A stretch of DNA of 64,000 bases from Myxococcota bacterium. GTDB taxonomy: Bacteria; Myxococcota; B64-G9. The notes beneath the pieces were generated by a model that saw nothing but the letters and a program-made list of their open reading frames with translations, searched no databases and was not told the origin of the DNA. Positions 35,158-49,305 of the stretch are shown here, piece by piece. The position numbers and the translations under genes are program-made. The stretch's first letter is position 1. Every line of letters starts with the position of its first letter. The DNA lies in the NCBI GenBank assembly GCA_022710975.1, contig JAKLGA010000015.1, positions 1-64,000 of the forward strand, given 5' to 3'.

Positions 35158-35730
35158 TCAGCGCTTCAGCCTGGCGGCCAGGGCCCGGGCCTGGCGCTGG
35201 AGATCCTTGCGCTCGCGGGTCTGGGCGGGCTCGTCGCAGCGCACGCCCGCCAGGCTGCCGCGGTACGCGGCCCGGCCGTACGCGCTCAGGCGCTTGAGCA
35301 TCTCCACGCACAGGTCGAGGCCGTCCCGCTTGTCCCCGCCCGCGGTGAACACGCCGGCCACCTGCTTGCCCTCGATCAGGCTGCGGCCGGACTCCTTGAA
35401 GAAGCAGTAGAAGCGATCGAGCGCCGCGGCGGTGGGGCCGGACACCTTCCAGCAGTAGACCGGGCTGGCCACCACCAGCGCGTCCGCCCAGACGACGTCG
35501 TCCAGGACCTCGCGCAGGTCGTCGCGCAGCTTGCAGGCCGGCGCCTCGTCGCGCCGCTTGCAGCTGTCGCAGTGGAGGCAGCCGCGGAAGGCGAGCCAGT
35601 GCAGCTCGTGCCGGCGCAGCTTGGCGCCCTGCTCCTCCAGCGCCTGCTCCACCCAGCCCAGCGCCGTCGCGGTGTTGCCCTTCCTGCGCGGGCTGCCGTT
35701 CAGCAGCACGACCTTGAGTTTCTTGCCCAT
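35158..35730 (-). CDS. flavodoxin-like NAD(P)H-dependent FMN reductase
   Basis: 190 residues; GGAGGAA is 9 bases before ATG 35730. NGSPRRKGNT (11-20) is the FMN phosphate loop, ASPVYCWKVSGP the second flavin contact. A Cys cluster CLHCDSC plus Cys-66 (spacing C-x2-C-x2-C-x8-C, residues 51-66) recalls iron-sulfur flavoproteins, although the last gap is longer than in Isf. Likely an electron-transfer or quinone/metal reductase. 17 bp downstream of the degenerate GGDEF gene. Confidence 0.85.
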   Translation of the reverse strand: MGKKLKVVLLNGSPRRKGNTATALGWVEQALEEQGAKLRRHELHWLAFRGCLHCDSCKRRDEAPACKLRDDLREVLDDVVWADALVVASPVYCWKVSGPTAAALDRFYCFFKESGRSLIEGKQVAGVFTAGGDKRDGLDLCVEMLKRLSAYGRAAYRGSLAGVRCDEPAQTRERKDLQRQARALAARLKR

Positions 35731-35747
35731 GTGGTTCGTTCCTCCGC

Positions 35748-36758
35748 TCACAGGATGAAGGTGCGCGGCCCCAGCTTGCCGCCGCTGTCGGTGCACGCCT
35801 GCGGACCCGCGGCGCCGTCCGGGCTGCGGCACAGGATGACCAGATCCCCGCCCTTGAGCTCGGCTTCCTTGAGCGCCCGCATGGCGGCCTGGATCATCTT
35901 GCCGAAGCTCGCCTCCGGCCCGCCCGTGGCCGCCACGGCCACCGACACGGTCACCTTGAGCGAGGTCAGGCTAGCCGGCACCGGCTGGGCGTGGATGCGA
36001 TCGCGGATGCGGTCGCCCACCACGGCCGCCCCCTCGAGCTCGGTGTGCGGCAACACCAGCAGCACCTTGTCCTCGGCGAACAGCAGCGGGATGTCGATGT
36101 CGCGGATGGCCTCGCCGACCACCTTGCGCAGCGCCTCGTACAGCGCCCGGCGCGACTCGAGGTTGAGCCAGCCGGACACCTTCTGGAAGTTGTCGAAGGC
36201 CACCAGCACGATGGACAGGGGGTAGCCGTAGCGCTGCGCCCGCTTCACCTCCAGCAGCATGACCTGCTTGAAGAGATCGAAGCGGTAGAAGTGGGTGTCC
36301 GGATCGATCAGCGTCTTGCCCGCCAGCGAGCGCCTGAGCGCGGCGTTCTCCTCCTCCAGGTGCTGCGCCCGGCTGGCGAGCGCGTGCCGCTCGAGCAGGA
36401 GCTCACCGAGCGCGCCCAGGTGGCCCAGGTCGGCGGGCAGCCGCAGCGCGGCGGTGACCCCCAGCTCCCGCCGCAGCCTGTCCAGGTCGGCGTCCGGCTC
36501 GGGGGTGAGCAGCACGAAGGGCAGCCCGGCCTGGCCGAAGTCCCGCAGGTACTCCCACAGCCCGGCCGCGCCCATGCCGGCGATGGCCTGGTGGCACAGC
36601 ACGAGATCCAGGTTGGGATCCTCGAGCTGCGGGAGCGCGGCCTCGCAGGTGTCCACCTGGTTGAGCTCGAACCCGGCCGCCTCGAGCCGCTCGCGCAGCG
36701 CGGCCGCGGCCTCCGCCGCCGAGTCCGGGATGACCACGAGCGCTCTGCGCACCGCCAT
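35748..36758 (-). CDS. degenerate receiver-GGDEF protein
   Basis: 336 residues. N-terminal CheY-like fold (ALVVIPDSAAEAAAALRERL, LDLVLCHQAIAGMG) in which the phospho-acceptor Asp position is not acidic, then a coiled coil (LEEENAALRRSL) and a GGDEF-fold domain (ALYEALRKVVGEAI) where the signature is replaced by FAEDKV. Both domains look catalytically dead, so it may bind a ligand or partner. A TAAGAT box with TGC extension (36806-36801 minus) may be the -10. The flavodoxin gene follows. Confidence 0.75.
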   Translation of the reverse strand: MAVRRALVVIPDSAAEAAAALRERLEAAGFELNQVDTCEAALPQLEDPNLDLVLCHQAIAGMGAAGLWEYLRDFGQAGLPFVLLTPEPDADLDRLRRELGVTAALRLPADLGHLGALGELLLERHALASRAQHLEEENAALRRSLAGKTLIDPDTHFYRFDLFKQVMLLEVKRAQRYGYPLSIVLVAFDNFQKVSGWLNLESRRALYEALRKVVGEAIRDIDIPLLFAEDKVLLVLPHTELEGAAVVGDRIRDRIHAQPVPASLTSLKVTVSVAVAATGGPEASFGKMIQAAMRALKEAELKGGDLVILCRSPDGAAGPQACTDSGGKLGPRTFIL

Positions 36759-36868: not shown

Positions 36869-37915
36869 ATGGGCAAGGACGAGCACGTGCGCCTGACCCA
36901 GTGCGCCTCCGCGGCGGGTTGAGCTGCCAAGCTGGGGCCAGGGGACCTGGCCCGGGCGTTGAGCGGCCTGAAGCTGCCGGAGGACCCGAACCTCCTGGTC
37001 GGACTGCACACGTCCGACGACGCGGGCGTGTACCGTCTGGACGCCGGGACCGCGCTGGTGCAGACCGTGGACTTCTTCACCCCGGTGGTGGACGACCCGG
37101 AGACCTTCGGGCGCATCGCGGCGACGAACTCGCTCTCGGACGTGTACGCCATGGGCGGCCGGCCGCTGACCGCCATGAACGTGGTGGGCTTCCCGGTGAA
37201 GAAGCTCGGCCTGGAGGTCCTGCAGGCCATCCTGCGGGGCGGGGTGGCCAAGCTGCGCGAGGCCGGGGTGGTGCTGGCCGGCGGGCACAGCGTGGACAAC
37301 CCGGAGGTGCTCTTCGGCCTGTCGGTCACCGGGCTGGTGCACCCGGACTGGGTGTGGCGGAACACGGGCGCCCTGCCGGGCGACGCGCTGGTGCTCTCCA
37401 AGGCGCTCGGCACGGGCGTCATCACCACCGCGCTCAAGGCCGGCCTGGCCGCGGCCGGGGACGTGGCGGCGGCGGTGGCCTCCATGGAGACGCTCAACCG
37501 CCAGGCGGCCGAGCGGGCCGCGGATCTGGCCATCCACGCCGCGACCGACGTGACCGGCTTCGGCCTGGCCGGGCACGCCTGCGAGATGCTCGGCGACCAG
37601 CCGGTGGGCTTCGAGCTGGACGCCCGCGCGCTGCCGCTGCTGCCCGGCGCCGCGGGCTACGCCGCGCAGGGGCTCATGCCGGGCGGGCTGCACCGCAACC
37701 GGGAGCACTTCGGCCCGCGGGTGGAGCTCGGCCCGGAGGTCCCGGCCGCGGCGCGCGATCTCCTCTTCGACCCGCAGACCTCGGGTGGGCTGCTCTTCGC
37801 CCTGCCGGTAGGGCAGGCCGAGGCCCTGGCCGAGGAGCTCCGCGCGGACGGCCTCCCGGCCGCGGTCATCGGCCAGGTCACCTCCGACCACCCCGGCCGC
37901 ATCGCGGTGCGCTGA
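36869..37915 (+). CDS. selD: selenide, water dikinase (selenocysteine-containing)
   Basis: 348 residues if the UGA at 36920-36922 is read as selenocysteine (residue 18). The frame before it reads MGKDEHVRLTQCASAAG and after it AAKLGPGDLARAL: exactly the SelD active-site segment where Cys or Sec precedes the catalytic Lys (here Lys-21). The rest is full-length SelD: HTSDDAGVY, DFFTPVVDD, VLAGGHSV, TDVTGFGLAGHA, LLFDPQTSGGLL. It makes selenophosphate from selenide and ATP. A plain gene finder would start it after the UGA and lose the active site. ATG 36869 fits a leaderless promoter; GTG 36887 is an alternative. Confidence 0.93.
36935..36953 (+). promoter_or_regulatory. bacterial SECIS-like hairpin in selD
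   Basis: Perfect 8-bp stem GGGCCAGG (36935-36942) / CCTGGCCC (36946-36953) with loop GGA, whose loop begins 20 bases after the UGA, inside the range for bacterial SECIS elements bound by SelB. A lower helix GCTGC (36923-36927) with GCGGC (36963-36967) is possible. Confidence 0.75.
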
Positions 37916-39323: not shown

Positions 39324-40575
39324 GTTCGGTCAGGGCCAGGAGCGCGAAGGACGCCAGCCAGTGCTCGCCGCCGTAGCCCGCGCCGAACATCCTGTCGTGC
39401 GCCTCCCGGCGGTGCAGGCGGGCCAGCGCCAGGAGCGGCTCGCGCCAGGGATCGCCCGCCTCCAGGGCCGAGGCGACGCCGGCCAGGCTCCAGGCCCGCG
39501 ACCACGACAGCCCGATCAGGTGGCCGAGGCGCGGATCCTCGGGATCGCGCACCTCCGGCGGGCGGGCGAGCGGGCCGAAGCCGGCCGACAGCGGGTCGGG
39601 CAGGAAGACCCGCAGCCAGGCCCGGAACTCCCCGGGCGGCAGCACCCGGCGCATGAGATCGGCCTCGGTCAGGCAGGGCGACAGGAAGTCCTCGCCCGAG
39701 GGCTCGTAGGCCGCGGGGCAGCCGCGGTCGGCCAGGTAGAAGTCCCGCGCCCGCTGGCCGATGGCCGCGGCCAGGTCGGGCTCGCCCGCGGCCCGGGCGT
39801 AGTCGAGCGCGTGGACGAGCGCGAAGGCCGTGTTCTGGTGGGTGCCGTCCCGCACCGGCGCGCTCAGCCGCTCGAGGTACGCGCGCAGCCTGCCCGCCAG
39901 CTCGCCCGACAGCGGCCGGAGCGCGTCGCGCCAGGCCGCCGCGGCCGGGTCCGGGTGGGCGGTGAGCTCCGCCTGGAGCCGGAGCAGCCAGCCCCAGCCG
40001 TAGGGCCGCTCGAAGATCTTGTTGCGCGGCTCCCGGAAGAAGGCGAGCTCGGCCGCCAGCAGCTCGGGCCGCAGGTGGGCGGACAGCGCCTGGCGCAGGG
40101 CCGCGGCCTCGGGCAGGCCGGGGAACAGGCGCAGCGCCCGGGCCATGGCCCAGCAGCCGTGCACCGACGAGTGCCAGTCGAAGCAGCCGAAGAAGGCCGG
40201 GGTGAATTCCCGGTGCGGCCGGGCCTGCTCGGGACCCTCCTGGACGTGGCCGGGCTTGTTGGGGTAAGGCCGCTCCTCGCAGGCGAGCGACAGCCCCACC
40301 AGCCGCGAGGCCAGGGCCGGGTCTAGCCGGAGGTCGGCCGCGGGCGGCTCGGGCTGCGGCGGGGCGAAGCCCGCGGGCGGCGGGTAGCCCTCCGGCGCGT
40401 CCCCCTCGACGGTCGCGGGCAGCCCGACCCACACCAGGTAGACCCCGCCAGCCGCGGCCAGCATCGCGACCACCAGCAGCACCCGGCCCACCTGCCAGCG
40501 CCAGGACTTGCGCGGAGTCGGACCCGTCGGGAGCTGCGCCGGCGCGGGATCGTTCGGGTCAGCGGGTCCAGGCAT
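39307..40575 (-). CDS. DUF2891 family protein with N-terminal membrane anchor
   Basis: 422 residues; GGGGAGGT 5 bases before ATG 40575. A proline-rich start, one membrane helix (about 29-50), then an alpha/alpha-type domain. PNKPGHV, FFGCFDWHSSVHG, WGWLLRLQAEL and GLSWSRAWSL match DUF2891, whose members are uncharacterised but look like (alpha/alpha) toroid glycan-active proteins. The tail ends AGYGGEHWLASFALLAL. Probably anchored in the inner membrane facing the periplasm. Confidence 0.8.
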   Translation of the reverse strand: MPGPADPNDPAPAQLPTGPTPRKSWRWQVGRVLLVVAMLAAAGGVYLVWVGLPATVEGDAPEGYPPPAGFAPPQPEPPAADLRLDPALASRLVGLSLACEERPYPNKPGHVQEGPEQARPHREFTPAFFGCFDWHSSVHGCWAMARALRLFPGLPEAAALRQALSAHLRPELLAAELAFFREPRNKIFERPYGWGWLLRLQAELTAHPDPAAAAWRDALRPLSGELAGRLRAYLERLSAPVRDGTHQNTAFALVHALDYARAAGEPDLAAAIGQRARDFYLADRGCPAAYEPSGEDFLSPCLTEADLMRRVLPPGEFRAWLRVFLPDPLSAGFGPLARPPEVRDPEDPRLGHLIGLSWSRAWSLAGVASALEAGDPWREPLLALARLHRREAHDRMFGAGYGGEHWLASFALLALTEPIQAP

Positions 40576-40594
40576 GGAGACCTCCCCGCCACAG

Positions 40595-40624
40595 AGGCTA
40601 TCCCTGCCTCTGGCCTGCCCGCAA
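40595..40624 (-). promoter_or_regulatory. candidate promoter of the DUF2891 gene
   Basis: Minus strand TTGCGG (40624-40619), 18 bp, TAGCCT (40600-40595). Confidence 0.45.
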
Positions 40625-40630
40625 CCCGCC

Positions 40631-40659
40631 TTGATTTCCCCGCGCGATGTCCTCAGAAT
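40631..40659 (+). promoter_or_regulatory. candidate promoter of the EGF-glycosidase operon
   Basis: TTGATT 40631-40636, 17 bp, CAGAAT 40654-40659, 34 bases before ATG 40694. Confidence 0.5.
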
Positions 40660-40693
40660 GGCCCCCGTCACGGGGTCTCTCGAGGAGGACTGG

Positions 40694-43600
40694 ATGCCTG
40701 AGCGCCTCTCCGCGTTGGTGGCCGGATGGCTCTCGCTCGTGGCGCTCTCCGCCGGGACCGGGTGCAGCGGGGGGGGAGGGGAGGACGCCTGCCAGGGCGT
40801 GACCTGCTCGGACCACGGCGCGTGCGGGCTGGTAGACGCCCGGGCGGTGTGCCTGTGCGAGCCCGGCTACCAGGCCGAGGGGCTCGCCTGCGTGGAGATC
40901 GTCAGCCCCTGCAACCCCAACCCCTGCCTGCACGGGGAGTGCACGGCGGACGGCGCGGCCTTCGCCTGCGCCTGCCAGGCCGGCTACGCGGGCGAGCGCT
41001 GCGACGGCTGCGCGCCGGGGTTCCACGCCGAGGGGCTGCGCTGCCTGCCGGACGGGGTCGATGCGTGCCTGCCGAACCCCTGCCCCGTGGACTGGCACCG
41101 CGGGCGCTGCCAGGCGGACGGCGCGGGCGGCTACACCTGCCTGTGCGACGCGGGCTACCACGAGGACGGCGGGACCTGCGTCGAGGACAGCGTGTGCGAT
41201 CCGGCCACCACCTGCTCGGGCCACGGGCAGTGCACGGGGGTGGGCCTGGGCTGCGGGTGCGACGCGGGCTACGCGGGCGTGCACTGCGAGGGCTGCGCCG
41301 CGGGGTACCACCTCGAGGCCGGGGCCTGCGTCGAGGACCGCGTGTGCGAGCCTGCCACCACCTGCTCGGGGCACGGGCAGTGCACCGGGGTGGGGCTCGC
41401 CTGCGCCTGCGACACCGGCTACACCGGCCCGGATTGCGGGGCCTGCGCGGCCGGCTACCACGTCGAGGCCGGCGCCTGCGCGATCGACACCGTGTGCGAG
41501 CCCGCCACCACCTGCTCGGGCCACGGGCAGTGCACCGGGGTCGGCCTGGCGTGCGCCTGCGACGCCGGCTACACCGGTGCGCATTGCGAGGGCTGCGCCG
41601 CGGGGTACCAGGACGAGGACGGCGACCGGGTATGCTGGCCCGACTGCGCCACCGCGGCCCTGGACTGCGGGTCGCACGGCCACTGTGCGGTGCAGGCCGG
41701 CCAGGCGCGCTGCGCCTGCGACGACGGCTACCAGGACCGCGACGGGGACGGCGCCTGCCTGCCCACCTGCGCCACCGCGGGGCTCACCTGCCCCGGCGGA
41801 GAGGTGTGCTCGGACGCCTCGGGGGAGGCGCGCTGCGTCTCGGCGGTGAAGCCGCCCATCTACATCTCCTTCCACTGGCACATGCACCAGCCCATCTACT
41901 ACCCCTACGAGAGCATCGTCGAGACCGAGGCCCAGAACCACATGGGCTTCTCGGTCTACCAGGTGCACTTCGACCGCACCGGGCCGTACACCTCCTGGCC
42001 CCGCGACGCCGTGTCCGCCGGCGCCGCGCTCCCGCACCTCGGGGCGCAGGTGTCGCTGTCCGGCTCGCTCATGGAGAACCTGAACAGCCTCGCGGCCGCG
42101 GGCGCGGGCTTCCAGGGCTGGACCGCGGGCTGGAGCGAGGCCGCCGGCTGGGACACCTCGCTCGGCAACCCGCGCCTGGATCTGGTGAACTTCGGCTACC
42201 ACCACCCGCTCATGGGGCTCATCGACCCGCTCGACATCCGCTTCCAGGTCCAGGCCCACCAGACCATGGTGGATCGCCACCTGGGCGGCCGGCGCTCGAA
42301 GGGCATCTTCCCGCCCGAGTGCGCCTTCAGCCCGCGCATGATCCCGGCGCTCACGGCCGAGGGGATCGAGTGGGCCCTGGTGGACAACGTGCACTTCGAC
42401 CGCTCCCACCGCGACTACCCCTGGGTGCCCGAGTCCAACCTGCCCCGGCCCAACCAGGCCGACCAGGTGAACGCGCAGGCGACCGACTGGGTGGCGCTCC
42501 ACGGCCTGTGGGCGCCCTCCCGCGTGGCCGCCCCCTGGGGTTACCAGCCTCACTGGGTGGAGTACGTCGAGCCCGACAGCGGGCAGGTGAGCCGGATGAT
42601 CGCCGTCCCGGCCGCGCGCTACGAGGGCAACGAGGATGGCCGGGGCGGGTTCGGGGCCCTCAACTACGAGACGGTGATGAGCCAGTACGAGGCCCAGAAC
42701 ACCGACCCGCTGCACCCCATGCTGATCGTGCTGCACCACGACGGGGACAACTACGGCGGCGGGACCGAGTCGTACTACCACGGCAACTTCCAGGCCTTCG
42801 TGAGCTGGGCCGCGGGCCAGCCCGCGCGCTTCGTGCCCACCACCATCCAGGACTACCTGGACCAGTTCCCGCCCGACGCGGACGACGTGATCCACGTGGA
42901 GGACGGCTCCTGGAGCGGCGCGGACAACGGCGACCCGGAGTTCCACAAGTGGAACGGCGACCCGGCCGCGGACGGCTACTCCCCGGACCGCAACTCCTGG
43001 GCGGTGATCACCGCGGTGAAGAACCGCGTGCTGACCGCCGAGGCCATCCTGGCGCACACCTCGGCCGCGGCCATCGTGGACGGCACGGGCAACGACACGG
43101 ACCGGGCCTGGCGCCACCTGCTCAACGCCGAGACCTCCTGCTACTGGTACTGGGACAACTCGGCCGGCGGGCTGTGGGACAGCCACCCCACGCGCGGAGC
43201 CAACCTGGCCGCGGGCTACGCCGACCTGGTGCTGGCGCAGGGCGCGGACACGCTGCCGCCGACCATCTACCTGCCGCAGCGCGAGCCCTACAACCCGGGC
43301 CTGGCGCCGGAGCCGTCCGACTTCGAGGTGTGGACCTTCGTCTACGACGTCTCGGGCCTGGCGCAGGTCGAGCTGCGCTGGCGCGTGGACGCCGACGGCG
43401 TGCGCGACGGGGCCAACGAGCTGTACGCCGGGGGCGCCTGGCAGGCGGCGGAGATGGACGGCACGACCCTGGCCCCGCGCACGGATCCGCTGCCGCTCTA
43501 CCAGGCCGCCCAGTACCAGGCCGAGATCGCGGGCCTGCGCGACGCGCTGGTGGACTACTACGTCGCGGCCACGGACACCCTGGGGCACGAGGCGCGCTCG

Positions 43601-43969
43601 CCGTTCATGCACGTGTGGGTGGGCGACGCGGCCGGCCAGCCGAGCGACATCTGGTCTCCGGCCGAGCCCACCTCCGCCGACGAGATCACCATCACCTGGA
43701 ACCGGGCCGGCAGCCTGCACTGGGGCGTGGACGGCTCGCTGAACGGCCACTGGCTGGCGCCGCCGGCCGAGTACTGGCCGGCCGGCTCCACGCTGTGGGC
43801 GGACGGGCGGGCGATCGAGTCCCCGCTCGCGGGGCCCGACGCCGAGGGCAATTACACCCTGCGGCTCGGTCCCTTCGACGGCGCGCCGGTCCAGGAAGTG
43901 AACTTCGTCTTCCACCACGCCGACGGGAGCTGGTCGTCCCCCGACCACACCATCCCGATCGCCCCCTGA
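40694..43969 (+). CDS. EGF-repeat lipoprotein with GH57 glycosidase domain
   Basis: 1091 residues; GAGGAGG 5 bases before ATG 40694. Signal peptide ends AGTGC, a lipobox. Residues ~30-385 hold about eight EGF-like modules (CSGHGQC, CDAGYTGAHCEGCAAGY). From ~390 to ~800 lies a family GH57 catalytic domain: WHMHQP (395-400), PEC with candidate nucleophile Glu-542, HHDGDN with candidate acid Asp-683 or Asp-685. Two beta-sandwich modules follow, the last with WNRAGSLHWGVDG, resembling starch-binding CBM folds. GH57 enzymes act on alpha-glucans. Likely surface-attached, together with the GH13 gene 22 bp downstream. Confidence 0.9.
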   Translation: MPERLSALVAGWLSLVALSAGTGCSGGGGEDACQGVTCSDHGACGLVDARAVCLCEPGYQAEGLACVEIVSPCNPNPCLHGECTADGAAFACACQAGYAGERCDGCAPGFHAEGLRCLPDGVDACLPNPCPVDWHRGRCQADGAGGYTCLCDAGYHEDGGTCVEDSVCDPATTCSGHGQCTGVGLGCGCDAGYAGVHCEGCAAGYHLEAGACVEDRVCEPATTCSGHGQCTGVGLACACDTGYTGPDCGACAAGYHVEAGACAIDTVCEPATTCSGHGQCTGVGLACACDAGYTGAHCEGCAAGYQDEDGDRVCWPDCATAALDCGSHGHCAVQAGQARCACDDGYQDRDGDGACLPTCATAGLTCPGGEVCSDASGEARCVSAVKPPIYISFHWHMHQPIYYPYESIVETEAQNHMGFSVYQVHFDRTGPYTSWPRDAVSAGAALPHLGAQVSLSGSLMENLNSLAAAGAGFQGWTAGWSEAAGWDTSLGNPRLDLVNFGYHHPLMGLIDPLDIRFQVQAHQTMVDRHLGGRRSKGIFPPECAFSPRMIPALTAEGIEWALVDNVHFDRSHRDYPWVPESNLPRPNQADQVNAQATDWVALHGLWAPSRVAAPWGYQPHWVEYVEPDSGQVSRMIAVPAARYEGNEDGRGGFGALNYETVMSQYEAQNTDPLHPMLIVLHHDGDNYGGGTESYYHGNFQAFVSWAAGQPARFVPTTIQDYLDQFPPDADDVIHVEDGSWSGADNGDPEFHKWNGDPAADGYSPDRNSWAVITAVKNRVLTAEAILAHTSAAAIVDGTGNDTDRAWRHLLNAETSCYWYWDNSAGGLWDSHPTRGANLAAGYADLVLAQGADTLPPTIYLPQREPYNPGLAPEPSDFEVWTFVYDVSGLAQVELRWRVDADGVRDGANELYAGGAWQAAEMDGTTLAPRTDPLPLYQAAQYQAEIAGLRDALVDYYVAATDTLGHEARSPFMHVWVGDAAGQPSDIWSPAEPTSADEITITWNRAGSLHWGVDGSLNGHWLAPPAEYWPAGSTLWADGRAIESPLAGPDAEGNYTLRLGPFDGAPVQEVNFVFHHADGSWSSPDHTIPIAP

Positions 43970-43991
43970 CGGAGCCCGTGAGGTGAACGCG

Positions 43992-46900
43992 ATGTTGAAG
44001 ACGTGCTGGCCCGGTCTGGTCCTGCTGCTGGCGCTCGCCGCCGGCTGCGACGACGGCGGCGTGGACCTGTGCGCGGCGGTGGACTGCGGCAGCCACGGGA
44101 GCTGCGCGCTGGTGGACGGCCTGCCCGCCTGCGCCTGCGACCCGGGCTACACGGCCGACGGGCGGAGCTGCATCCTCGACCCGTGCTCGAGCTCGCCCTG
44201 CGTGCACGGCACCTGCTCGCCCAGCGGGCGGAACGCGGTGTGCGCCTGCGAGGCGGGCTACGGCGGCCCGCTGTGCGACAGCTGCGCGGCCGGCTACCAC
44301 GCCGAGGAGCTGGTGTGCCTGCCCGGCTCGCCCTGCGCGGACGACCCCTGCGTCTACGGCCTGTGCCGCAGCGTGGACGGGCTCGCGCGCTGCGAGTGCC
44401 AGCTCGGCTACGCCGGGGAGCGCTGCGACGGGTGCGCCCCGGGTTTCGTGGCCGAGGGCCTGCGCTGCGTGGCCGATCTGGCCTGCGACCCCGACCCGTG
44501 CGTGCACGGCACCTGCGCGCCCCAGGCCGGGGTGGCCGTGTGCAGCTGCCGCGAGGGCTACGCCGGTGAGCGCTGCGACGCCTGCGCGGCCGGCTACCAC
44601 GCGGAGGAGCTGTACTGCGTGCCCGACATCGGGGGCCCCTGCGATCCGAACCCCTGCCAGGAGGCGAACCGCACCCGCTGCCAGGTGGCGGACGGCGAGG
44701 CGGTCTGCCTGTGCGATCCGGGCTACCACGAGGACGCGGGCGCCTGCGTCGCGGACACGGCCTGCGAGCCGAACCCCTGCCAGGAGGCCCACCGCGGGGT
44801 GTGCCAGGACGACGGGGCCGGCGGCCACACCTGCGCGTGCGACCCGGGCTACCACGAGGAGGAGGGCGCCTGCGCCGTGGACACGGCCTGCAGCCCGAAC
44901 CCCTGCCCGGTGGGCGAACACCGCGGGCGCTGCCAGGACGACGGCGCGGGCGGCCACACCTGCCTGTGCGATCCGGGCTACCACGAGGACGCGGGCGCGT
45001 GCGTCCAGGACACGAGCTGCGACCCGCTCACCACCTGCGCCGGCCACGGCCAGTGCACAGGCGCGGGGCTCGAGTGCGCCTGCGACGCCGGCTACGCCGG
45101 CGCGAACTGCGCGGACTGCGCCGCGGGCTACCACGCCGCGGGCGGGCTGTGCGTGAGCGACACCTCCTGCCAGCCCAACCCGTGCACCCAGCCGGATCGC
45201 ACCCGCTGCGTGACCGGCCCCGGCGGCGAGGCCGTGTGCCTGTGCGACGAGGGGCTGCGCGAGGAGGCCGGCCTGTGCCTGGGGGTGTGCGACACGCTGC
45301 TGAGCTACACGCCCGCGGCCGGCGAGAACATCACCCGGCTCTACGCGCGCGGCGAGTGGAACGGCTGGGGCCTGGGCGACGAGCTCGCGCGCGGCGAGGA
45401 CGGGGTGTACCGGGTGGTGCTGGAGCTGGCCGCCGGGGACTACGCCTACAAGCTGTTCGAGCAGGGCGCGGCCCGCTGGTTCGAGCACCCGGGCAACCCC
45501 TACTTCAAGTGGTTCGGGACCCCGGCCACGCGCAACTCGCGCCTGCACGTGCGCGACTGCGATCAGCCGCTGCTGCGGCTGGTGGCCCAGCCCAGCGTCG
45601 GCCCGGGCTCCATCGCCTTTCAGGTCGAGTACCTGGACGGCGCGGCCGGGGCCGGGGTGGATCCGGCCGGGGTGGAGGCCACCCGCAACGACGCGCCGAT
45701 CCCGGGCGCCTTCGACCCGGCCACGGGGCTGTTCACCATCCAGGACACGGGGCTCCCCGACGGCAAGCAGACCTACCGCTTCCGCGCCCGGGATCAGGCC
45801 GGCCGCGCGGCCGAGCGGCTGTACGTGCCGGTGTGGCTCGAGGCGCAGCCCTTCGCCTGGGAGGACGCGGTCCTGTACTTCGCCATGACGGACCGCTTCG
45901 TCAACGGCGACGCGGGCAACGACGCGCCGGTGGGCGGGGTGGTCGACTACCGCGCGGACTGGCAGGGCGGCGACTTCGCCGGGCTGCTGGCCAAGGTGGA
46001 GAGCGGCTACTTCACCGAGCTGGGGGTGAATACGCTGTGGCTGTCCTCGGTCACCATGAACACCCAGGGCGCCGGTCAGGGCTCGGGCGCGGACACGCAC
46101 TACTACACGGGCTACCACTCGTACTGGCCGATCACCCTCGGCTGGCGCGAGGGGCAGGAGTTCCCCGGGCTGCACCCGGTCGAGCCGCACTTCGGCGAGC
46201 TCGCGGAGCTCAAGGCGCTGGTGGCCGCGGCCCACGCCCGGGGTATCCGGGTGCTGGTGGACTTCGTGGCCAACCACGTGCACGCGGACAGCCCGCTGTG
46301 GACCGAACACGGCTGGGCCTGGTTCAACGACGATCCCAACACGGCCGGGCAGCAGCCCTACATCTGCGGCTGGGACCAGCCCATCATCTGCTGGTTCGCC
46401 GCCTACCTGCCGGACTTCGACTACCGCGTCCTGGAGGCCATGGACACGGTCGTGGAGCACGCCATCTGGCTCATCCAGGAGACCGACGTCGACGGCTTCC
46501 GCCTGGACGCGGTCAAGCACATGATCCACGACTTCTGCTACACGCTGCGCGGCCGCATCCAGGAGAGCGTCACCACCACGGGGTTGCGCTTCTACATGGT
46601 GGGCGAGACCTTCACCGGAGAGGGCGAGGGCGAGGCCTCGCTGATCCGCTCCTTCGTGCGGCCCGAGGAGCTCGACGGGCAGTTCGACTTCCCGCTCTTC
46701 TGGCAGATGGTGACCGTGTTCCTGCGCGAGGAGCGCACCTACCAGAGCCTGGAGGGCTTCCTGCAGCAGTTCCAGGGCTACTACGGCGACTGGGCGGTCA
46801 TGTCCAACTTCCTGGGCAACCACGACGTGCCCCGGGCCATCTCGCACGCCAACGGCGACATCGCCGACATGTGGGGCAACGGCGCGCGCGACCAGGGCTG

Positions 46901-47411
46901 GAACGACCCGCCCGGCGCGCCCACCGCGGCCCTACCCTTCAAGAAGCTGCGCCTGGGCTGGACGTTCTTGCTGAGCGTGCCGGGCATCCCCATGGTCTAC
47001 TACGGCGACGAGTACGGCCTGCCCGGGGCGGGCGATCCCGACAACCGGCGCATGATGCAGTTCGGCGCCCAGCTCAACTCCGAGCAGGCGCTGACCCTGC
47101 AGCACCTCCAGCGGCTCGGCCAGGCCCGCGCCGCCCACCCGGCCATGCGCTACGGCAGCCGCCAGCAGCTCGCCCTGGACGGGGACGGGCTGTACTGGGC
47201 CTTCGGCCTGAGCTCGGGCGCGGACCGGGTGGTGGTGGTGTTCAACCGCAAGGCCGACCCGCAGACCCGCTCCATCCCGGTCGCGGCGCTCGGCCTGGCC
47301 GACGGCACCAGCCTGCGGGACGTGGTGCACCAGACGAACGCCAGCGTGTCGGGTGGCAACCTGAGCGTGACCCTCCCCTCGCGTGACAGCGCCGTGTTCG
47401 TCCTCGAGTGA
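43992..47411 (+). CDS. EGF-repeat lipoprotein with GH13 alpha-amylase domain
   Basis: 1139 residues from ATG 43992; GAGGTG lies 6 bases upstream, and GTG 43983 is an alternative. Lipobox LAAGC at about residue 19; nine or so EGF-like modules to ~430 (CACEAGYGGPLCDSCAAGY). A CBM48-like N-domain (RGEWNGWGLGDELARGEDG) leads into the GH13 barrel. The four regions are intact: I, Asp-757/Asn-761/His-762; II, GFRLDAVKH with nucleophile Asp-839; III, VGETF with acid/base Glu-872; IV, NHD 943-945. Predicted to hydrolyse alpha-1,4-glucans outside the cell, with the GH57 partner. Confidence 0.92.
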   Translation: MLKTCWPGLVLLLALAAGCDDGGVDLCAAVDCGSHGSCALVDGLPACACDPGYTADGRSCILDPCSSSPCVHGTCSPSGRNAVCACEAGYGGPLCDSCAAGYHAEELVCLPGSPCADDPCVYGLCRSVDGLARCECQLGYAGERCDGCAPGFVAEGLRCVADLACDPDPCVHGTCAPQAGVAVCSCREGYAGERCDACAAGYHAEELYCVPDIGGPCDPNPCQEANRTRCQVADGEAVCLCDPGYHEDAGACVADTACEPNPCQEAHRGVCQDDGAGGHTCACDPGYHEEEGACAVDTACSPNPCPVGEHRGRCQDDGAGGHTCLCDPGYHEDAGACVQDTSCDPLTTCAGHGQCTGAGLECACDAGYAGANCADCAAGYHAAGGLCVSDTSCQPNPCTQPDRTRCVTGPGGEAVCLCDEGLREEAGLCLGVCDTLLSYTPAAGENITRLYARGEWNGWGLGDELARGEDGVYRVVLELAAGDYAYKLFEQGAARWFEHPGNPYFKWFGTPATRNSRLHVRDCDQPLLRLVAQPSVGPGSIAFQVEYLDGAAGAGVDPAGVEATRNDAPIPGAFDPATGLFTIQDTGLPDGKQTYRFRARDQAGRAAERLYVPVWLEAQPFAWEDAVLYFAMTDRFVNGDAGNDAPVGGVVDYRADWQGGDFAGLLAKVESGYFTELGVNTLWLSSVTMNTQGAGQGSGADTHYYTGYHSYWPITLGWREGQEFPGLHPVEPHFGELAELKALVAAAHARGIRVLVDFVANHVHADSPLWTEHGWAWFNDDPNTAGQQPYICGWDQPIICWFAAYLPDFDYRVLEAMDTVVEHAIWLIQETDVDGFRLDAVKHMIHDFCYTLRGRIQESVTTTGLRFYMVGETFTGEGEGEASLIRSFVRPEELDGQFDFPLFWQMVTVFLREERTYQSLEGFLQQFQGYYGDWAVMSNFLGNHDVPRAISHANGDIADMWGNGARDQGWNDPPGAPTAALPFKKLRLGWTFLLSVPGIPMVYYGDEYGLPGAGDPDNRRMMQFGAQLNSEQALTLQHLQRLGQARAAHPAMRYGSRQQLALDGDGLYWAFGLSSGADRVVVVFNRKADPQTRSIPVAALGLADGTSLRDVVHQTNASVSGGNLSVTLPSRDSAVFVLE

Positions 47412-48318: not shown

Positions 48319-49305
48319 ATGCGAACTGCGGCCTTCCTGGGGTGCGCGTGCCTGTCCGGCGCGCTGGCGTTCGGGGCGTGCGCGGCCAACCCCGGCTCCG
48401 CTCCGCGGCCGGCGGCCCCCGCGGCCGCGCTCGACGGGCTCGGCTGGCTGCCCGGGGTGTGGAGCGGGCCCGACGGCGAGGACGTGGTCGAGGAGCACTG
48501 GTGCTGGGCCGAGGCCCCGGGCGGCGGCCGGCGCCTGGAGGGGCTGGGCCGGCGGCTGGCGGGCGAGCGGCTGGTCTTCCAGGAGGTGCTGGCCATCGAG
48601 GCGGAGGCCGACGGCCTGGTCTACCGGGCCTGGCCCCGGGGCGAGCCGCTGACCGGCTTCGCGCTGGAGCGGCTCACCGGCGACGAGGCGCTGTTCGCCA
48701 ACCGGGCGCACGACTTCCCCGCACTCATCCGCTACGCCCGCGAGGGCGAGCGGCTGCGCACCCGGGTGGCGGGCGACGGCCCGGGGGCGCCCGCGCCGAA
48801 GGAGTGGCTGCTCGAGCGCCAGGCCGGCCGGACGCCGGACTGCGCCCGCGCGGTGCGGAAGCGGATCGAGGTGGCCGCCCCGGCCGGGGCCGTGCGCGAG
48901 GCCTGGAGCACGGAGGCCGGCGTGCGCACCTTCCTGGCGCCCGCGGCCAAGGTGGAGGCCCGCGCGGGCGGCGCCTTCGAGCTGTACTTCGCCCCGGAGG
49001 CCGAGGCGGGCACGCGGGGCAGCGAGGGCTGCGTGTTCCTCGAGCTCGCCCCGGCGCGGCTGGCCTTCACCTGGAACTTCCCGCCCAGCCTGCCCGCCAT
49101 CCGCGGCGAGCGCACCCTGGTGGAGGTGCGCCTCGAGGCGCTGGCCCCGGAGCGCACCCGGGTGTGGCTCGACCAGCGCGGCTTCGAACCGGGCGCGGAC
49201 TGGGAGGCGGGCCAGGCCTACTTCGAGCGCGCCTGGGGCCTGGTGCTCGCGCGGCTCGCGCAGCGCTTCGAGGCCGGCCCCGTGGACTGGAGCGCCCCGG
49301 GCTGA
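48319..49305 (+). CDS. lipoprotein fusing DUF6265 and SRPBCC/AHSA1 domains
   Basis: 328 residues; GGAGG 8 bases before ATG 48319. Lipobox-like ALAFGAC at ~20. Domain 1 (about 40-165) is DUF6265-like: LGWLPGVWSGPD, EEHWCWAEAPGG, ANRAHDFPALIRYAREG. Domain 2 (about 180-320) is an AHSA1/START-type hydrophobic cavity fold: RIEVAAPAGAVREAW, FLELAPARLAFTW, TRVWLDQRGF. Both folds bind small hydrophobic ligands in other proteins; the ligand here is unknown. Combining them in one exported lipoprotein is unusual. Confidence 0.7.
   Translation: MRTAAFLGCACLSGALAFGACAANPGSAPRPAAPAAALDGLGWLPGVWSGPDGEDVVEEHWCWAEAPGGGRRLEGLGRRLAGERLVFQEVLAIEAEADGLVYRAWPRGEPLTGFALERLTGDEALFANRAHDFPALIRYAREGERLRTRVAGDGPGAPAPKEWLLERQAGRTPDCARAVRKRIEVAAPAGAVREAWSTEAGVRTFLAPAAKVEARAGGAFELYFAPEAEAGTRGSEGCVFLELAPARLAFTWNFPPSLPAIRGERTLVEVRLEALAPERTRVWLDQRGFEPGADWEAGQAYFERAWGLVLARLAQRFEAGPVDWSAPG

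Follow-up and report, generated by a model that had tools for sequence, protein, structure and literature searches.

Selenoprotein forms of SelD (selenide, water dikinase, or selenophosphate synthetase) have been described in other bacteria, as an earlier note on this DNA had stated. Mariotti et al (2015, PMC4561486) reported selenocysteine (Sec), invariably at one position, in 19% of the prokaryotic SelD genes detected in their reference set, and Zhang et al (2006, PMC1794560) listed SelD among the selenoproteins of Anaeromyxobacter dehalogenans. The selD gene described here lies in a stretch of 64,000 nucleotides, which we call the window. It shares with the A. dehalogenans case (PMC1794560) the enzyme, a single UGA, the Sec pathway and co-resident formate dehydrogenase selenoproteins, and the two differ in sequence divergence only, with nothing of substance to set them apart.

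The earlier note had proposed that the selD of the window is itself a selenoprotein gene. The pathway genes, the alignment to cysteine and the agreement with bacterial SECIS (bSECIS) constraints support this, and we put the probability that the gene encodes the selenoprotein form of selenophosphate synthetase, with UGA codon 18 read as selenocysteine, at about 0.97. Since Sec-SelD has already been reported (PMC4561486, PMC1794560), the finding is an ordinary one: the gene is genuine and well supported, and it is a known arrangement of low novelty. The relevant features, all on the forward strand, are the following.

36869..37915 (+): selD (selenide, water dikinase / selenophosphate synthetase), 348 aa with predicted Sec at position 18; matches TIGR00476, PRK00943 and 3u0o
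36869..36871 (+): probable start codon ATG, a Met/Val codon at a constant position (M/V-x6-RLT)
36920..36922 (+): UGA codon 18, predicted selenocysteine, opposite the catalytic Cys of the E. coli and A. aeolicus SelD
36923..36967 (+): predicted bacterial SECIS element, full stem-loop; MFE -34.4 kcal/mol for 36920-36979
36935..36953 (+): predicted bSECIS upper stem (8 bp) with GGA apical loop, the part expected to bind SelB, based on covariation and the bSECIS constraints
36959..37915 (+): TTG-initiated 318-aa frame in the mechanical ORF list, the expected product of a standard-code caller, without the active-site loop

The selD frame and its UGA codon

The translation of 36869-37915 reads MGKDEHVRLTQCASAAG*AAKLGPGDL...IAVR*, with stop codons shown as asterisks. 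A TGA is the sole internal stop in its 348 codons, and the terminal stop (37913-37915) is TGA as well. The frame belongs to the SelD family by NCBIfam TIGR00476, which it matches with 386 bits (cut-off 125) over profile positions 1-307 of 311, and it matches PRK00943 with 357 bits. PDB 3u0o, which we take to be the E. coli SelD, aligns with it over residues 5-346 (E=1.7e-79), and solved SelD structures align along the entire protein. The E. coli enzyme (3u0o) is thus a whole-length homologue with the same active-site loop, but it has a Cys codon and needs no SECIS where the window gene has UGA. An Rfam search of the window returned no match.

The internal TGA (36920-36922) is codon 18 and is flanked by ASAAG and AAKLGPGD, as the earlier note had it. 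The note also placed this codon at the active-site Cys/Sec position of SelD, and the alignments agree: AAG-U-AAK in the window stands against GAG-C-GCK of 3u0o and SSG-C-AAK of 2yye, presumably the Aquifex (A. aeolicus) SelD. Both the catalytic Cys/Sec position and the Lys of the N-terminal glycine-rich loop (G-C/U-x-x-K) are present in the predicted protein. The equivalent codon was collected from 89 homologous SelD loci, made up of the one in the window, 8 in its order and 80 in a genome collection, and was TGA in 52, TGC in 31 and TGT in 6, with no other codon seen. An in-frame UGA opposite the Cys of homologues (here 52 TGA and 37 TGC/TGT) is one of the marks of a bacterial selenoprotein. 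Of the seven further genomes of the order that gave a match, six have the same in-frame TGA, at 54-62% protein identity. The position of the only stop on the catalytic residue, the Cys/TGA split among homologues and the order-wide TGA all argue from sequence that this in-frame TGA is beyond chance.

A Met or Val codon, and so a possible ATG or GTG start, stands at the M/V-x6-RLT position in the window and in each of the six UGA relatives from its order (L023-L028). This constant position before RLT favours ATG 36869 over GTG 36887, although an AAGGA read directly from the sequence is better spaced for the GTG. Translation could instead begin at TTG 36959 and give a 318-aa protein without the N-terminal loop, the upstream part being non-coding. 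This is the frame that a standard-code ORF search gives, and its presence in the ORF list bears out the earlier warning that automated callers would report selD truncated, without its active site. We consider it a very unlikely account of the gene, because nearly all loci conserve the upstream peptide RLT...AG in frame, with the possible start at a constant distance in the order, and because the product would have neither the catalytic Cys/Sec nor the Lys. A comparable N-terminally truncated trypanosomatid enzyme without Cys/Sec and Lys did not complement an enzyme-deficient E. coli strain (PMC7595633). For the full-length reading, the practical consequence is mainly one of annotation: a standard gene caller would report a SelD cut short and deprived of its active site.

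A hairpin downstream of the UGA

The 8-bp hairpin that the earlier note had described at 36935-36953 is found exactly as claimed, starting 12 nt past the UGA, with arms GGGCCAGG (36935-36942) and CCTGGCCC (36946-36953) around the loop GGA. A lower stem extends it to 36923-36967. The bSECIS constraints (PMC13188914) are a loop of 3-9 nt with a G within its first two positions, an upper stem of 4-16 bp, a UGA-to-loop distance of 16-37 nt and an MFE of -7.5 kcal/mol or lower. With a 3-nt loop beginning with G, 8 bp, 20 nt from the UGA and -26.5 kcal/mol, the hairpin agrees with every one of these and shows no departure from the consensus (PMC13188914).

Because the stem lies inside the conserved peptide GPGDL, it was tested whether the protein sequence alone explains the hairpin, by recoding 55 UGA genes and 44 Cys genes with synonymous codons. 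The mean z was -1.69 for the UGA genes versus +0.21 for the Cys genes (Mann-Whitney p=2.7e-11), the contrast persisted with the GPGDL peptide held fixed (27 versus 8, p=0.001), and the window gene alone gave only p=0.039; as related sequences were treated as independent, the p-values make the case look stronger than it is. The contrast is clear, and it indicates that synonymous codons favour the hairpin in UGA genes and not in Cys genes. In 24 UGA genes chosen for equal spacing, 93.8% of upper-stem cells were paired and compensatory changes were found at 4 of the 8 pairs, with a covariation score reached by 0 of 500 shuffles and by no slid register. In some distant UGA selD genes the best hairpin lies elsewhere; the precise placement of the stem is therefore a trait of this group that not every Sec-SelD shares.

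The Sec pathway in the genome

The earlier note had predicted SelA, SelB and SelC elsewhere in the genome, and a genome search found all three: selA (512.7 bits), selB (314.7 bits, C-terminal winged-helix domains included) and a tRNA-Sec with anticodon UCA (76.8 bits), on three contigs other than that of selD. Their presence in one genome is a further mark of a bacterial selenoprotein. Thus the whole pathway is present, and like the gene, the position of its codon and the hairpin with its covariation, it can be read from the sequence.

These genes also bear on the possibility that the organism has a code in which UGA stands for an amino acid throughout, with no Sec. A UGA within a conserved gene would fit such a code, but a dedicated tRNA-Sec, SelA and SelB would not, and TGA ends selD itself and 34 of the 39 coding-like window ORFs of at least 150 aa. 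UGA is the main stop codon and hence not globally reassigned; we regard general reassignment as extremely improbable.

For selD as a selenoprotein gene, we infer actual Sec insertion and enzyme activity, with the following steps. Translation would start at ATG 36869, and at UGA codon 18 SelB with Sec-tRNA(UCA) would bind the stem-loop 36923-36967, so that selenocysteine enters the chain, termination is avoided and the ribosome proceeds to the UGA at 37913. Sec18, with Lys21 nearby in the glycine-rich N-terminal loop, would serve selenophosphate synthesis from selenide and ATP. SelA would then use selenophosphate to make Sec on tRNA-Sec, and the Sec-tRNA would supply, besides SelD, at least two formate dehydrogenases.

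Two molybdopterin formate dehydrogenases of the genome contain a UGA (ARLUHSPTV and ARTUHAPTV), in both cases at the known Sec position, and they are exposed to the same annotation error as selD. The second selenoprotein of the genome would be a formate dehydrogenase alpha subunit with the in-frame UGA in VEHQARLUHSPTV (L148:1351-4518 (+), G000:C11:141824-144841); it shares a contig with the tRNA-Sec gene, at a distance of about 24 kb. The third would be a formate dehydrogenase-like molybdopterin oxidoreductase with the UGA in IDHCARTUHAPTV (L149:1201-3738 (+), G000:C25:127602-128339) and with N-terminal ferredoxin-type domains. A search of the genome for the 2-selenouridine synthase YbbB/SelU (TIGR03167) did not find it, which leaves a role of SelD in supplying selenouridine unsupported here.

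SelD across the phylum and its possible self-dependence

Among 156 genomes of the phylum, each at least 90% complete, selD was found in 129, and 68 of these have the in-frame TGA form. SelA was found in 127 genomes, including 67 of the 68 with a TGA selD. A stop-free SelD copy accompanies the TGA form in one of the 68 (G005), which leaves 67 of the 129 selD-bearing genomes with a UGA selD and no stop-free copy. The UGA form is the usual state of selD among the relatives.

With these counts in hand, the UGA could still be thought a nonsense mutation or a sequencing error in a SelD meant to carry Cys. TGA is one base from TGC and TGT, and the assembly (7.13 Mb) is a draft in 29 contigs. An accident of this kind would, however, have to recur in the six other genomes of the order, at their 54-62% identity, and in 68 genomes of the phylum; the downstream hairpin is selected only in UGA forms, and outside this codon the gene is intact, its GC by codon position being of the coding type. 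We judge it highly improbable.

The only TGA-selD genome with no SelA match, a point against the selenoprotein reading, is G010, whose gene (G010:C28:1894-2829) scores low; the genome is 92% complete, and this is either an assembly gap or a decaying gene. Its missing selA is possibly due to that incompleteness. In G005 (L030 / L128, G005:C477:126-1151) the UGA selD is accompanied by a Cys-type SelD that is contained in an open frame of 829 aa, perhaps a fusion, and that resembles the GLGCACKLRP type of a Bacteroidales locus (L110). G077, an apparently complete genome, has a stop-free SelD and no SelA match; its selenophosphate probably goes to a use other than Sec.

In the genome of the window only one SelD scored above the cut-off. 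This sole gene requires Sec, which in turn requires SelD, so the pathway depends on itself, and the phylum count raises the question of how a Sec-dependent, sole-copy SelD is first made. It is conceivable, though we hold it doubtful, that a cell left without SelD protein, for instance during prolonged selenium starvation, would restart only via leaky UGA readthrough, in which case Sec competence would be partly protein-inherited and possibly bistable. If true, self-dependence would be a general property, given the 67 genomes with a UGA copy alone. Neither a discussion of SelD bootstrapping nor papers on myxobacterial SelD were found in the literature searched.

A scan by codon usage searched the window for other in-frame UGA codons flanked by coding signal on either side and returned a single candidate, at 49303 (+). 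This resembles a pair of neighbouring genes that share a frame, with the TGA followed by an in-frame, ATG-started, coding-like stretch, and it was rejected as a recoded UGA. The scan missed selD itself and is therefore too insensitive to exclude other selenoproteins in the window.

Directly upstream of selD, on the opposite strand, is an FMN reductase family protein (35158-36758 (-)) with no obvious selenium link; its longest frame and the end of a GGDEF-domain protein overlap. Further downstream, two long adjacent proteins (40508-43969 and 43983-47411, both +) have N-terminal EGF-like Cys-rich repeats, joined to domains that by eye resemble the glycoside-hydrolase/amylase type.
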